Shown here in pieces: positions 10,969-53,254 of a stretch of DNA of 64,000 nucleotides. The notes under the pieces are model-generated. The model did no database searches. It was not told where the DNA came from and saw nothing but the letters and a program-made list of their open reading frames with translations. Source of the stretch: Candidatus Poribacteria bacterium (GTDB taxonomy: Bacteria; Poribacteria; WGA-4E; WGA-3G); the NCBI GenBank assembly GCA_026706025.1, contig JAPOZO010000020.1, forward strand, positions 62,001 through 126,000. The letters run 5' to 3'. Both the position numbers and the translations under genes were made by a program. The stretch's first letter is position 1; each line of letters begins with the position of its first letter.

Positions 10969-11796
10969 TTACCGTTCTGGAATTTTATCTTCCGTTGGAC
11001 GGGGGTTATGAACCCAATGCCCATTTGGATCTTTGCCTCTGGCGACAATCGCGCGTTGGTTCCAATCATTTGCTGCGTGGACTTCAGGCGGCACGAACCG
11101 CATCGTCAACCCACAACGCCGCCGATCTGATGTGTTCGGTTCAGAACCGTGCAACAGCAGATCCGAATGCAACGACATCTGTCCGGCTTTCATTTCAAAT
11201 GGATGGGGTGCGTCTCCATATTGTGTCGCTCCATGTACTGTCTGACCCAGCACATTCTTTTCCTCAGCGGCACTGCGTTCAAATGCAATCTGCCCATGCA
11301 GATGAGACTTCGGAATAACAGTCATCGCACCGTTTTCAACCTCGGCATCGTCAATAGCGAGCCATACGGTGACAGTCTTACTTGGAGAGAGGGGCCAATA
11401 GGAGGCATCCTGATGCCAACTCACCTGTTTCACATCCCCCGGCAGCTTGCAGAAGTAGTGTGTCCCCCAACAGATTAGCGTTTCACCAAGGAGATCTTGC
11501 ACATAATCCAAGATTCTTTTTTCCGTAACAAGGTCGTGGAGACCGGTACAAGTGGTGTGCCATCCGTTGATGGAGTAGCTATTCATCCCTGCTGCCAGTG
11601 CCTTTTCCATAAGTTGATCAAAATAGGCACGGTGTTCGGCGATCTCCGCTTCCGAAAAAACATCTAAGGGTGAGATAAACCCGTTTTCATTGAAGTGTGC
11701 GATTTGGGCGCGTGTTAACGTTGATGGATTCTCGTTTTTAACCGGAAAAAACTGTAGTGTTCGCTTGAGTTCCGGCATTGCATCCGTAATTGGCAT
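10969..11796 (-). CDS. Phytanoyl-CoA dioxygenase (PhyH) family protein
   Basis: This 275-residue Fe(II)/2-oxoglutarate dioxygenase has a complete facial triad: HQD in VSWHQDASYWPLSP and the distal His in LLLHGSEPNTSDRRRCGLTMRF, with the Arg that binds 2-oxoglutarate in the same segment. ENGAMTVIPKSHLHG is the family's core strand-turn. The substrate is unknown; PhyH paralogues hydroxylate lipids, small metabolites or osmolytes. The membrane transporter-like gene follows directly. Confidence 0.9.
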   Translation of the reverse strand: MPITDAMPELKRTLQFFPVKNENPSTLTRAQIAHFNENGFISPLDVFSEAEIAEHRAYFDQLMEKALAAGMNSYSINGWHTTCTGLHDLVTEKRILDYVQDLLGETLICWGTHYFCKLPGDVKQVSWHQDASYWPLSPSKTVTVWLAIDDAEVENGAMTVIPKSHLHGQIAFERSAAEEKNVLGQTVHGATQYGDAPHPFEMKAGQMSLHSDLLLHGSEPNTSDRRRCGLTMRFVPPEVHAANDWNQRAIVARGKDPNGHWVHNPRPTEDKIPER

Positions 11797-15983: not shown

Positions 15984-16796
15984 ATGCTACAAATCAGATC
16001 AGCGTTAGACTCAGAAAGACTCGACATTGTTGAGCAAGACTTGCGCGAAGTCGGTTTCCACATCATCGAAAATGTGATTACCGACGATGAAGCAGACGAA
16101 GCACGCGAAGCAATCTGGAAATTAGTTGAAGAAGACATCGAAAACGGATTTGACCACAGTTACGGTGACGGTAAAATCCGACGCGTCTGGGCAATCGTCG
16201 GAAAATCTCCCATCTTCCGTTATTTTATTCAGCACCCGACCGTCGTTGCCGTATGGAAACGGATGCTCGGTGAGGATGTCATCGCCTCCACATTTACGGC
16301 GAATATCGTTGGACCCGGCGCACCCGAAGGCGGTTGGCATATTGACTACCCGTATTGGGCGATGCAATCGCCTTTCCCATCGGGTTCAATAACCGGACAA
16401 ACCGTCTGGATGTTGGACGACTTTACGGAAGCAAACGGTGCAACGGCGTGCATCGCAGGTTCACACAAAACGCTCCGCCGTCCCGAATTGGGGGAAGCAG
16501 AAGGGCTTGAGAGCAGCGTCGCTGTCGCACCGAAAGGCTCTATCATGTTCACAAACGGTGCAATCTGGCATCAGTCTCGGGCGAACCTCACGGACACACC
16601 GCGCGTCGGGTTGCTCGGTATGTATAACCGATCGGTCATCTATCCGCAAGAGGATATGCCGCGGCAGTTGACTGACGAGGCGTTAGCAGGCGAAAGCGAT
16701 GTACTTAAGCAGCTGCTGGGCAGAAATATCCAGTTCCGCGATCCAAATCACGGACAGAATTGGCATCGTACGGAGAACGGATTTCGCCAAGCATAG
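15984..16796 (+). CDS. Phytanoyl-CoA dioxygenase (PhyH) family protein
   Basis: This 270-residue protein has HID in GGWHIDYPYWAM, the core GATACIAGSHKTLRRPE and the distal His in NGAIWHQSRANLTDTPRVGLL with the 2-oxoglutarate Arg. The facial triad is therefore intact. It begins 14 bp after the SDR gene with AGAGGTGA as SD, and is likely in the same operon. It is a separate subgroup from the PhyH protein at 10969 and from the one at 49473, judged by motif context. Confidence 0.9.
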   Translation: MLQIRSALDSERLDIVEQDLREVGFHIIENVITDDEADEAREAIWKLVEEDIENGFDHSYGDGKIRRVWAIVGKSPIFRYFIQHPTVVAVWKRMLGEDVIASTFTANIVGPGAPEGGWHIDYPYWAMQSPFPSGSITGQTVWMLDDFTEANGATACIAGSHKTLRRPELGEAEGLESSVAVAPKGSIMFTNGAIWHQSRANLTDTPRVGLLGMYNRSVIYPQEDMPRQLTDEALAGESDVLKQLLGRNIQFRDPNHGQNWHRTENGFRQA

Positions 16797-49095: not shown

Positions 49096-49419
49096 ATGGC
49101 TTTTTTTGAATTAAGGCAGTACAGAACGAAACCCGGTCAACGCGAAAACTGGGTGAAATACATGGAAGAAACGGTACTCCCATTCCAGATATCTAAAGGA
49201 ATGGTTGTGATTGGCAGTTTCATCGGTGAAGAAGAGGACGATCTCTACGTTTGGATCCGACGGTTCGAGAGCGAAGAACAGCGAGAGCAGCTCTACGCAG
49301 CGGTCTATGAAGATGATCGGTGGAAAAACGAGATGTCACCACGCGTCGGTGAACTGATTGATAGAGAACAAATCGTTGTCACACGGCTTGAACCCACTTC
49401 GCGCTCGGCACATCAATAA
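49096..49419 (+). CDS. NIPSNAP-family protein
   Basis: This 107-residue dimeric alpha-beta barrel protein has the family pattern FFELRQYRTKPGQRENWVKYMEETVLPFQISKGMVVIGSFIGEEEDDLYVWIRRFESEEQREQLYAAVYEDDRW. Bacterial NIPSNAP proteins are small stand-alone ferredoxin-like domains of unclear role, often near PhyH or sugar-metabolism genes. It precedes a PhyH gene by 53 bp; the gap contains a GGCACAC/GTGTGCC hairpin. Confidence 0.9.
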   Translation: MAFFELRQYRTKPGQRENWVKYMEETVLPFQISKGMVVIGSFIGEEEDDLYVWIRRFESEEQREQLYAAVYEDDRWKNEMSPRVGELIDREQIVVTRLEPTSRSAHQ

Positions 49420-49472
49420 GACAGAGACTACGGCACACGGCGTGTGCCTGCTACCTTTAACGGAGGTGTCTC

Positions 49473-50219
49473 ATGAGCCCTGAAGAAAAATATTTGTTTG
49501 ATCTATGGGGATATGTGAATATTGAAGGCGTTTTAGGCGATGAAGCACTCGCGGAATTGAACGCCCTGATTGATGCCCAAGATTATCCGGATCCAGTGGA
49601 TGATAATGTTCATTCGCAGCGATTTGGTGGCTTCCTAAGTTGGGAAAACGACGCGTTCCGTAAACTGCTTAACCATCCGCGTATTATGCCGTGCTTAGCG
49701 GAGGTCGTCGGTCCTAAGTTTCGGCTCGATCACGTCTACGGCATCTTAATGATAGAAGGCAACCCAGGCGGAACACTCCACGGTGGCGGCACGCCTTATG
49801 ATCCGTCGCAGTACTACGTCTTCCGAAACGATCGGATGTATAACGGACTAACTGTCGTCTCGTGGGCGTTAACCGATATGCTGCCTGGACACGGTGGTTT
49901 CTGTTGCATCCCGGGTAGCCATAAGAGCAACTACCCGTGTCCGCCGGAATTCCGACCGGTGGTAGACAACAAAACCTGCATGGCACCCGTGCATCAGAAG
50001 GCCGGCGATGTGGTGATCTTCACCGAAGCATTGACACACGGCACGCTCCCATGGACGGCTACACACGAACGCCGCTCAATTTTATTCAAGTATTCACCAG
50101 GACACGCCTCATGGGGACAAGGCAGATACGATGACGAACTTCGCAACCTGATGTCGGAAGAGGATCAGAAGTTAATGCTGGAACCGCCTTACGTTGCACA
50201 CCGTAAACCGGTCGTCTAA
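49473..50219 (+). CDS. PhyH-family protein with HxG in place of HxD
   Basis: This 248-residue protein has the PhyH core GLTVVSWALTDMLPGHGGFCCIPGSHKSNYPCP and the distal HGTLPWTATHERRSILFKYSPGHASWG. At the first metal site, where the other two PhyH proteins of the window read WHQD or WHID, this one reads LHGGGTPYDP, so the carboxylate ligand is Gly. Loss of the carboxylate is known from the related Fe/2OG halogenases (HxA/HxG) and also from inactive members. GGAGG before ATG. Confidence 0.82.
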   Translation: MSPEEKYLFDLWGYVNIEGVLGDEALAELNALIDAQDYPDPVDDNVHSQRFGGFLSWENDAFRKLLNHPRIMPCLAEVVGPKFRLDHVYGILMIEGNPGGTLHGGGTPYDPSQYYVFRNDRMYNGLTVVSWALTDMLPGHGGFCCIPGSHKSNYPCPPEFRPVVDNKTCMAPVHQKAGDVVIFTEALTHGTLPWTATHERRSILFKYSPGHASWGQGRYDDELRNLMSEEDQKLMLEPPYVAHRKPVV

Positions 50220-50319: not shown

Positions 50320-51465
50320 CTACCAATCCGCGACGCTGCCATCGGTATCATAATAGTACTCGCCGCCGAGTTCTTCAGGGTAGGTGTTAAGTGTCTGTTC
50401 TGCCTCGTTCGCATCAATTTCAAAGCCGAGTCCGGGTTTCGTCGGCAATTCAATGTGTCCATCTGTAACCTGCCAATCCTCAATAAACAGACCGTCCCCT
50501 AACCCGGCATCAATCTGTTCTTGGATCAGGAAATTCGGCACAACGGCATCCACATGAAGGGAGGCAGAGAAAGCAACGGGACCGATAGCACAATGCGGGG
50601 CGATGTGCATATAGTAGACCTCCGCCATGTTCGCAATCTTCTTCAGTTCAGTAATGCCACCGGCATGGGAGGTATCGGGCTGTAAGTAAGCGACCGCCTG
50701 TTTCTCGAATATCTCGCGAAACCCCCAACGCGTCAGCAGCCGTTCACCCGTCGCAATCGGGAACGGCACATGGTCGGAGATCAGTTTGAGCGCGTCTACA
50801 TTCTCTTGTGGAATAGGTTCCTCGACGAACATCGGACGCATCCCTTTAAGTTCATGACAAATCTCAACGGCGAGCGCAGGGGTCATCTTACTGTGGAAGT
50901 CAAACGCAAGTTCGACTTCGGGTCCCACCCACTCGCGCATGAGATAGGCGCGTTCTACAAATTCGTCAATAACCGCGGGAGGTTCGTGTCCACGCCACTT
51001 GCCACCGGGACCGCTTTTAAATGCCGTATAACCGCCTTTTTGCTGTAAAAATTCGAGGCGTTCTTTCGCAGCAGCTTTGCCTTCGTCAGTTAAGCTCCCG
51101 ATGCCCCAGTGTGCATAGACGCGGATACGGTCGCGTACAGCACCACCTAAGAGTTGATAGGCAGGTACATCGTAGTATTTGCCAGCGATGTCCCACAACG
51201 CCTGATCAATGCCGGACAAAGCGGACATCAAGATATTACCGCCTCGGAAGAATGCGGAACGATAAACGTGTTGCCAGTGGTGTTCAATCCGTAACGGATC
51301 TTTACCGATAAAATAGTCGGCAAGTTCCGTAACAGCCATACACGTGCTTCTCGGTTTACCTTCAAGCGTGGTTTCACCCCATCCGACGATACCGGTATCT
51401 GTCGTGATCTTAACGAGCCGCGTCCGGCGACGCGGGTAAAATTGTTCAATAGTCGCAATTTTCAT
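50320..51465 (-). CDS. Galactonate dehydratase-like enolase-superfamily enzyme
   Basis: This 381-residue protein follows DgoD of the mandelate-racemase subgroup: LVKITTDTGIVGWGETTLEGK, ELADYFIGKDPLRIEHHWQHVYRSAFFRGGNILMSALSGIDQALWDIAGK, metal ligands Asp in LAFDFHSKM, Glu in FVEEPIPQENVD and Glu in PIATGERLLTRWGF, with the catalytic His in YMHIAPHCAIGPVA. The expected reaction is dehydration of an aldonic acid; D-galactonate is the best guess. It is minus strand and alone, but the glycerate kinase 2 kb on fits sugar-acid catabolism. Confidence 0.85.
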   Translation of the reverse strand: MKIATIEQFYPRRRTRLVKITTDTGIVGWGETTLEGKPRSTCMAVTELADYFIGKDPLRIEHHWQHVYRSAFFRGGNILMSALSGIDQALWDIAGKYYDVPAYQLLGGAVRDRIRVYAHWGIGSLTDEGKAAAKERLEFLQQKGGYTAFKSGPGGKWRGHEPPAVIDEFVERAYLMREWVGPEVELAFDFHSKMTPALAVEICHELKGMRPMFVEEPIPQENVDALKLISDHVPFPIATGERLLTRWGFREIFEKQAVAYLQPDTSHAGGITELKKIANMAEVYYMHIAPHCAIGPVAFSASLHVDAVVPNFLIQEQIDAGLGDGLFIEDWQVTDGHIELPTKPGLGFEIDANEAEQTLNTYPEELGGEYYYDTDGSVADW

Positions 51466-51672: not shown

Positions 51673-53010
51673 ATGTCCTCACAACCGAATGTTCTTTTTA
51701 TGATTGCTGATGACCATCGATGGGATGCTATCGGCGGTATGGGTGACCCGACCGTTAAGACGCCTACTATGGATTCACTCATGGCACGCGGGACAACCTT
51801 CCGCCAGACACACATTATGGGTTCACTTGTCGGAGCAGTCTGTGTACCGAGTCGTGCTGCTGTCCTCACCAGTGCTAATCTTTTTCGTAGCGGCGGAAAC
51901 CAGATTAACCCAGATTTGGCTGTCTGGCCACAAGTCATGCGCGAGGCAGGGTATCACACATTTTTTTCCGGCAAATGGCATAATGATAGACAAACATTTA
52001 GCAATAGTTTTGACGATGGCGGGTCAATTTTCTTCGGTGGCATGGGCAATCAATATAAAGTGCCAATTTTCGATTTTGATCCGACAGGAAAATATCCGCA
52101 AGATGATAGGTATATTGGTGATAAGTTTTCTACGGAACTGTTTACAGACTCAGCGGTGCAATTTATAGAAAACTACGACCAAACGGATCCATTTTTCCTT
52201 TACCTCTCCTTTACTTCACCGCATGATCCTCGGACACCGCCAGGAGAATACGCGACGATGTATAAACCTGAGGATGTCCCTGTTCCAGAAAACTTCCTCC
52301 CGGAACACCCGTTTGACAACGGGGAAATGCGGATTCGTGATGAAGTGCTGGCAGAATTCCCACGCACCCCTGAAATCGTTCAACAACATATCGCCGATTA
52401 CTACGGTATGATTACCAGCCAAGATGCCGAAATGGGACGCTTGCTAAACACATTGGAAGCCAACGGACATCTTGACAACACCATTGTCATCTATACCGCT
52501 GACCACGGACTCGCTGTTGGACAACACGGGCTGCTCGGCAAACAGAATCTCTATGACCACAGCATCCGTGTACCTTCCATATTTGCCGGACCGGGAATCC
52601 CCGAAGGCACAACAGTTGATGCACTCACTTACCTCTACGATGTCTTTCCGACCGTCTGTGACCTAACCAGTGTCGAGTGTCCGGATACGACTGAAGGGTG
52701 TAGTTTAGTACCCCTGATGGAGGGGTGTGTGGATCAGGTTCGTCCTACAGTCTTCGCGGCGTACAAAGATATTCACCGCACCATCAGCGATGGTCGTTGG
52801 AAACTGATCCGTTATTATGTCTCTGAAGAGACTGGTAAAGGCACAGATTACATCCAACTCTTCGATCTGGAGCAGGATCCTTGGGAAACAACAAACCTCG
52901 CGGGCCTGCCTGAGCATGCCGACCGCATCCGCTCACTTGCTGCTGATATGAAAATGTGGCAAACCGAGGCGGACGATTTCATGAAAGACACACCGATATT
53001 GTTACAGTAG
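51673..53010 (+). CDS. Sulfatase (formylglycine-dependent type)
   Basis: This 445-residue protein has NVLFMIADDHRWDAI at the N-terminus, AVCVPSRAAVLT with the CxPxR signature (CVPSR), GKWHNDRQTF and the YTADHGLAVGQHGLLGKQNLYDHSIRVPS segment. A signal peptide is absent. It differs clearly from the sulfatase at 39511 in its insertions. Its TAG stop is the first codon of the 41-bp tandem repeat. Confidence 0.93.
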   Translation: MSSQPNVLFMIADDHRWDAIGGMGDPTVKTPTMDSLMARGTTFRQTHIMGSLVGAVCVPSRAAVLTSANLFRSGGNQINPDLAVWPQVMREAGYHTFFSGKWHNDRQTFSNSFDDGGSIFFGGMGNQYKVPIFDFDPTGKYPQDDRYIGDKFSTELFTDSAVQFIENYDQTDPFFLYLSFTSPHDPRTPPGEYATMYKPEDVPVPENFLPEHPFDNGEMRIRDEVLAEFPRTPEIVQQHIADYYGMITSQDAEMGRLLNTLEANGHLDNTIVIYTADHGLAVGQHGLLGKQNLYDHSIRVPSIFAGPGIPEGTTVDALTYLYDVFPTVCDLTSVECPDTTEGCSLVPLMEGCVDQVRPTVFAAYKDIHRTISDGRWKLIRYYVSEETGKGTDYIQLFDLEQDPWETTNLAGLPEHADRIRSLAADMKMWQTEADDFMKDTPILLQ

Positions 53011-53199
53011 TAGGCACGCGCCGTCGTGCCGTAAGCAGTTGGATACAGTAGTAGGCACGCGCCGTCGTGCCGTAAGCAGTTGGATACAGTAGTAGGCACG
53101 CGCCGTCGTGCCGTAAGCAGTTGGATACAGTAGTAGGCACGCGCCGTCGTGCCGTAAGCAGTTGGATACAGTAGTAGGCACGCGCCGTCGTGCCGTAAT
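53008..53199. repeat. 41-bp tandem repeat, four full copies and one partial copy
   Basis: Unit starts at 53008, 53049, 53090, 53131 and 53172. Copies look identical. The unit contains GGCACG-CGCCGT-CGTGCC, a 6-bp stem with 6-base loop, so the mRNA could form a string of hairpins. The last copy ends near 53199. The minus strand of the unit is open in more than one frame, which makes shadow ORFs. Confidence 0.95.
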
Positions 53200-53254
53200 G
53201 CATTAGAGAAGACTGGAAGATTAGAAGGGCAGCCTTCTTTTCTTCCCACCTTCC

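Follow-up and report, generated by a model that had tools for sequence, protein, structure and literature searches.

Can a PhyH-family protein that carries glycine in place of the iron-binding carboxylate still be an active Fe(II)/2-oxoglutarate (2OG) enzyme, and if so, of which kind? The question is raised by a gene of Candidatus Poribacteria located at positions 49473..50219 (+ strand) of a 64,000-nucleotide stretch of contig JAPOZO010000020.1, which is referred to as the window. The gene encodes a 248-aa protein with a PhyH fold, which we assign to a HygX-like subfamily. The original prediction had left three options for this protein: a halogenase, a pseudoenzyme, or an enzyme with a shifted metal ligand, namely the Asp of a nearby TPYDP motif.

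The LHGGG motif

The window protein scored 50.9 bits against the Pfam profile PF05721 (PhyH), for which the cut-off is 22. Its LHGGG motif comprises residues 102–106 (49776..49790, +), with H103 as the first iron-binding histidine (codon 49779-49781, +) and G105 at the position of the HxD aspartate (codon 49785-49787, +; both by codon arithmetic). According to the alignments, the distal iron histidine H189 (50037..50039, +) and R200 (50070..50072, +) are invariant; R200 is the arginine that, going by the family, is expected to bind 2OG. Four residues ahead of the distal histidine (position −4), within VIFTEALTHG, lies E185 (50025..50027, +), the proposed carboxylate of the metal site. The HxD/E...H facial triad is absent and HGG...H stands instead; the Pfam PhyH model does not require the triad.

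We confirmed that glycine, not aspartate, occupies the second position after the first iron histidine (i+2). The alignment of this site had been made by eye, and it held in MAFFT alignments of three sequence sets, which placed H103 under the first histidine of the HxD motif of canonical PhyH proteins. The window encodes two further PhyH proteins, and these do carry HxD, in the form of WHQD (10969-11796, −) and WHID (15984-16796, +), so the contrast that first drew attention to the protein is real. H103, G104, and G105 were kept in 79 of 79 close rows, i.e., 78 Poribacteria-type orthologue rows, non-independent as two locus sources overlap, and one row from Latescibacterota (L110, 42–43% identical), which excludes a sequencing accident. 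Purifying selection on the protein is strong, with a median dN/dS of 0.029 (32 usable of 42 comparisons, 10 being saturated).

An excess of PhyH genes in the phylum Poribacteria has already been published (PMC3909097), and the genome under study holds 150 matches to PF05721. Among its 150 PhyH rows with both histidines aligned, 31 lack D or E at i+2. The feature therefore typifies a group and not a single odd gene.

Kinship with HygX and gene neighbourhood

By sequence, predicted structure, and tree, the window protein belongs with HygX, the hygromycin B oxygenase. HygX from Streptomyces hygroscopicus (u75123/u75124) was the top PDB match in a search with the single sequence (E = 6e-12), the next distinct protein following at 0.017. 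A profile search against the PDB returned HygX at 8e-52, a value that is partly circular and inflated because the underlying alignment, A1, contained the HygX orthologue L163. This orthologue, from Streptomyces sp. SAT1, is located in a plasmid region of aminoglycoside type together with APH(7'')-Ia, known as the gene for hygromycin phosphotransferase. For structural comparison, we used an AlphaFold model based on 27 varied rows (window protein and related loci) that included no HygX sequence (pLDDT 67.6, pTM 0.73); its HGG loop is weak, with pLDDT < 50 for residues 102–111. An earlier model with pLDDT 48.7 was discarded. It was based on alignment A2, whose 46 mostly near-identical rows stood for the window protein, L110, and 44 loci out of the orthologue set L061-L109. 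With the HygX-free model, Foldseek listed HygX at ranks 1–16 (best E = 9e-17; next protein 1e-12), and VIA-align listed it at ranks 1–4 (Z = 21.8 to 21.1), a small lead over GriE at rank 5 (20.3). In the careful tree, which retained 69 of 71 rows after removal of L243 (misaligned) and L163 (HygX duplicate), HygX and the window protein fell into one clade that was split from canonical PhyH proteins at a bootstrap/SH-aLRT support of 96/96.

The window protein shows the HygX-like signature, LHGx plus ExxxH. In HygX, the corresponding stretches are LHGG and, around the distal histidine, NEALMHG (H102, G104, E202, and H206), and the titles of its PDB entries (4xc9, 4xca, 4xcb, 4zpi set) name bound iron (4zpi), nickel with 2OG (4xca), and hygromycin B. 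As HygX is iron-bound in spite of LHGG, a lost HxD carboxylate does not equal a lost metal in this branch. Both proteins share the PhyH fold, LHGG at the site of HxD, a NEALxHG-type Glu at −4, and an N-terminal YxFDxxGF-like motif. However, they are only 22–27% identical, and their surroundings differ: the HygX orthologue lies in the aminoglycoside-type region, and the window gene has NIPSNAP, mandelate racemase-like, and sulfatase genes as neighbours. The abstract of a structural study of HygX (McCulloch 2015, PNAS) is said to mention variation in its metal coordination, and a paper by Li from 2018 reportedly deals with oxidative cyclisation in hygromycin. The reaction of HygX is reported to be an orthoester-forming oxidative cyclisation (PMC8234114). 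A literature search, which reached few subscription papers, found no paper describing an ExxxH signature for the HygX-like clade.

The relationship to HygX also bears on the option that the protein is catalytically dead and retained as a binding protein. The loss of the textbook carboxylate speaks for such a pseudoenzyme; however, both histidines, the expected 2OG arginine R200, and E185 are invariant, the median dN/dS is as low as 0.03, and HygX binds iron and 2OG with the same residues. Human AspH works without a carboxylate ligand as well. We consider a pseudoenzyme very unlikely.

Regarding the gene neighbourhood, a gene for a NIPSNAP-family protein (49096..49419, +) is located 53 nt upstream of the PhyH gene. 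It adjoins the PhyH gene in 49 of 49 loci (L061-L109); no such gene was detected in L110 or L141-L146. The downstream neighbour encodes a mandelate racemase/enolase-superfamily protein (50320..51465, −), and a similar gene occurs within 1.3 kb in 27 of the same 49 loci; a sulfatase is present in 38 of them, and a glycerate kinase also lies downstream in many. The context of distant orthologues, covered by ten hand-picked neighbours of which two gave no Pfam match, includes Gfo/Idh/MocA genes (near L141, L142, and L144), an amidohydrolase (L141), an acetoacetate decarboxylase-like gene and a second PhyH gene (L142), a xylose-isomerase-like barrel (L145), and an alpha-L-fucosidase (Latescibacterota L110). 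Taken together, these neighbours weakly hint at sugar or sugar-acid chemistry.

All but one of the 49 close orthologues (loci L061-L109) come from records named Candidatus Poribacteria. The exception, L075, lies on a 3.8-kb contig labelled Rhodothermaceae, with an orthologue of 93% identity together with the NIPSNAP gene; this is probably a misbinned Poribacteria contig. On viral contigs, neither a profile scan, a DNA-pattern scan (three unrelated matches), nor a canonical-PhyH scan gave a confirmed relative. Two repeat structures were observed in the surrounding DNA. The 17-bp near-perfect palindrome GGCACACGGCGTGTGCC (49432-49448) lies between the NIPSNAP and PhyH genes and is single-copy in the window at ≤ 2 mismatches. 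A perfect 41-bp tandem repeat of 4.8 copies (53003-53198) is flanked by the sulfatase gene and the glycerate kinase gene and gives rise to a repetitive ORF (52848-53249, −).

Glu185 and the iron site

Alignment A1 consists of 30 diverse rows that are 27–81% identical to the window protein, and its invariant residues are D10, G13, R84, H103, G148, H150, G178, E185, H189, G190, and R200. The window protein has 32 acidic residues, and at just two of these positions, D10 and E185, every one of the 30 rows carries an acid; D135 (29/30) and D86 (28/30) come next. The suggestion of a shifted ligand was probably right in kind, with E185 (FTEALTHG) as the likely residue; the Asp of TPYDP, i.e., D110 (49800..49802, +, by codon arithmetic), does not fit the part. 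Although D110 is Asp in 79 of 79 close rows, it is acidic in just 14 of the 30 diverse relatives, it is replaced by Asn in L142 and L143 (65–66% identical), and the loop differs in HygX. We give its being the ligand almost no chance.

A parallel to E185 is found in human AspH, a hydroxylase with an HxG...H motif (PMC10947486). Its iron is held by two histidines, D721, at −4 from H725, holds a water at the carboxylate site, and the enzyme does not halogenate (PMC13168262). E185 and H189 are spaced as D721 and H725, and HxG together with an acid at −4 is common to both proteins; AspH differs by its Asp in place of Glu and by its protein substrate. AspH belongs to the Pfam family Asp_Arg_Hydrox (PF05118), whereas the window protein matched only PhyH and, below threshold, 2OG-FeII_Oxy_5. 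A gene search for Asp_Arg_Hydrox in this genome gave no match, the controls being equally silent. Since AspH comes from another family, the shared spacing is an analogy.

On the basis of this analogy and of the kinship with HygX, the window protein is probably an active Fe(II)/2OG oxygenase of the two-His, HygX type, with E185 taking the place of the missing carboxylate either directly or via a water molecule. For the role of E185 and for the activity, reaction, and substrate class of the protein, we infer the following course. H103 and H189 would hold Fe(II), and 2OG, held by R200, would chelate the iron. E185 would supply its carboxylate from the other side, as a direct ligand or as a water holder like D721 of AspH. 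O2 activation would lead to a ferryl species and hydrogen abstraction, followed by hydroxylation or oxidative ring closure of the substrate, which is probably carbohydrate-like.

The acid at −4 also separates the window protein from the halogenases it was compared with. If it were an Fe/2OG halogenase, G105 would free the site for chloride, and the ferryl species would pass Cl to a substrate carbon. HxG is indeed known from 2OG halogenases such as BesD and WelO5, and the setting in a marine sponge would suit this reading. The plant halogenase DAH is distinguished by an exchange of Asp for Gly at this site, and mutating the Gly back to Asp turned the enzyme into a hydroxylase (PMC7170919). However, replacing the carboxylate by Gly was not by itself enough to make a BesD-like hydroxylase halogenate efficiently (PMC13244439), and HxG oxygenases exist in the form of HygX, which has the same motif, and AspH. 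The comparison with SyrB2-type enzymes that had been proposed for this protein was made with SyrB2 and CytC3. Both were aligned through the paralogue L021; their first site is WHQA, and the distal histidine lies in FWSTLMH and FWSNTMH, respectively, which places Ser at −4. They resemble the window protein in having a PhyH-like fold and no carboxylate at i+2 (HxA in their case), and G105 agrees with the SyrB2-type pattern of Ala or Gly at this position; E185, in contrast, departs from their pattern of no carboxylate at −4. SyrB2 and CytC3 act on carrier-bound amino acids. Similarity of the window protein to the chlorinating enzymes is only marginal, with 11.4 bits against NCBIfam TIGR01762 (chlorin-enz) at a cut-off of 226.3, which no protein of this genome passes. 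Furthermore, the i+2 residue varies in the clade: 55 rows contain G (29), S (7), A (7), and D (7), and Q, N, E, V, and H once each, with Gln found in L144, which is 55% identical to the window protein. We judge a halogenase to be unlikely. Canonical PhyH proteins (PHYH, PHYHD1, and EctD) have the fold, the two histidines, and the arginine in common with the window protein and differ from it by the presence of HxD.

HxD and the acid at −4 among PhyH proteins

A census of the 150 PhyH rows of the genome revealed 112 rows with HxD/E and no acid at −4, 26 with the acid at −4 and no HxD, seven with both, and five with neither. The acid at −4 is thus rare among HxD/E rows (7/119), and Fisher's test for an exchange between the two gave p = 6e-18, a value that ignores the relatedness of the rows. 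Two trees took relatedness into account. The quick tree comprised 147 rows, remaining from a starting alignment of 154 after removal of three rows without an aligned histidine pair (151 left) and four short ones. Its three supported independent pairs had, on average, Glu and HxD changing in opposite ways in 1.3, in the same way in 0.0, and with no difference in the rest, which is not significant. The careful tree yielded four independent pairs, with averages of 1.5 for opposite change, 2.5 for no difference, and 0.0 for change in the same way, likewise not significant.

A clade with 100/100 support holds the L050 type, the HRD type beside L051, Glu-keeping relatives of both, and the L051 type. 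In the L050 type, HRD is combined with Thr at −4 (L263-L292, 30 of 30 loci); the type next to the L051 gene likewise has HRD, with Ser or Pro at −4. Judged from their sequences, HxD was regained or kept in these two types, and Glu is absent. Among their relatives L058, L318-L323, L326, L327, L330, and L334, those whose residues were read lack HxD and have Glu. The L051 type has neither acid: all 25 loci (L293-L317) read HGG, with Pro at −4. Both acids are found in L032, L152, and L159 (HAD plus Glu) and in the Cupriavidus plasmid locus L161 (HHE plus Glu); these may be intermediates of a ligand exchange.

Rows with both acids or with neither imply that the Glu at −4 may have another role. E185 might serve substrate binding or the fold, leaving a bare two-His site with water in what would still be an oxygenase; the lack of a significant exchange in the phylogenetic tests is in line with this. 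However, the residue is Glu in 30 of 30 rows despite identities of 27–81%, and it lies near the distal histidine with the spacing of D721 and H725 in AspH, so that we regard this role as rather improbable. Within the preferred reading of E185 as a replacement for the lost carboxylate, a narrower version can be put forward tentatively, in which E185 is a direct iron ligand and the clade runs on an H...ExxxH triad. The relocated carboxylate would then stand in for HxD throughout a large branch of the PhyH family, with a return to HxD in the L050 lineage.

Some paralogues were noteworthy in their own right. The HGG plus Pro paralogue at G000:C92:4798-5613 (L051, L293-L317) stands directly behind an HxD paralogue. 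PhyH paralogues with WHQH or WHSH, located at G000:C3:49801-50385 (L177) and G000:C32:80630-81948 (L244, two genes), have a third histidine at the carboxylate position and possibly form a three-His site. In the HygX-like paralogue L059 (G000:C73:26311-27003, ORF at +387), Gln is aligned with the distal histidine and with the 2OG arginine; this may be a genuine pseudoenzyme, unless the alignment is at fault.

Genome mining for 2OG halogenases makes use of HxG as a marker. The clade described here, with 26 of the 150 PhyH rows of a single genome, combines a missing HxD carboxylate with an acid at −4, so HxG alone misleads. The residue at −4, which is Ser in SyrB2 and CytC3 and an acid in HygX-like proteins and AspH, offers a simple sequence filter. 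It points to paralogues with neither acid as better halogenase candidates, and by its sequence the L051 type would be such a candidate ahead of the window protein. If E185 is indeed a direct iron ligand, the HGG plus Pro paralogues of the L051 type would be genuine open-site enzymes and possibly new halogenases.
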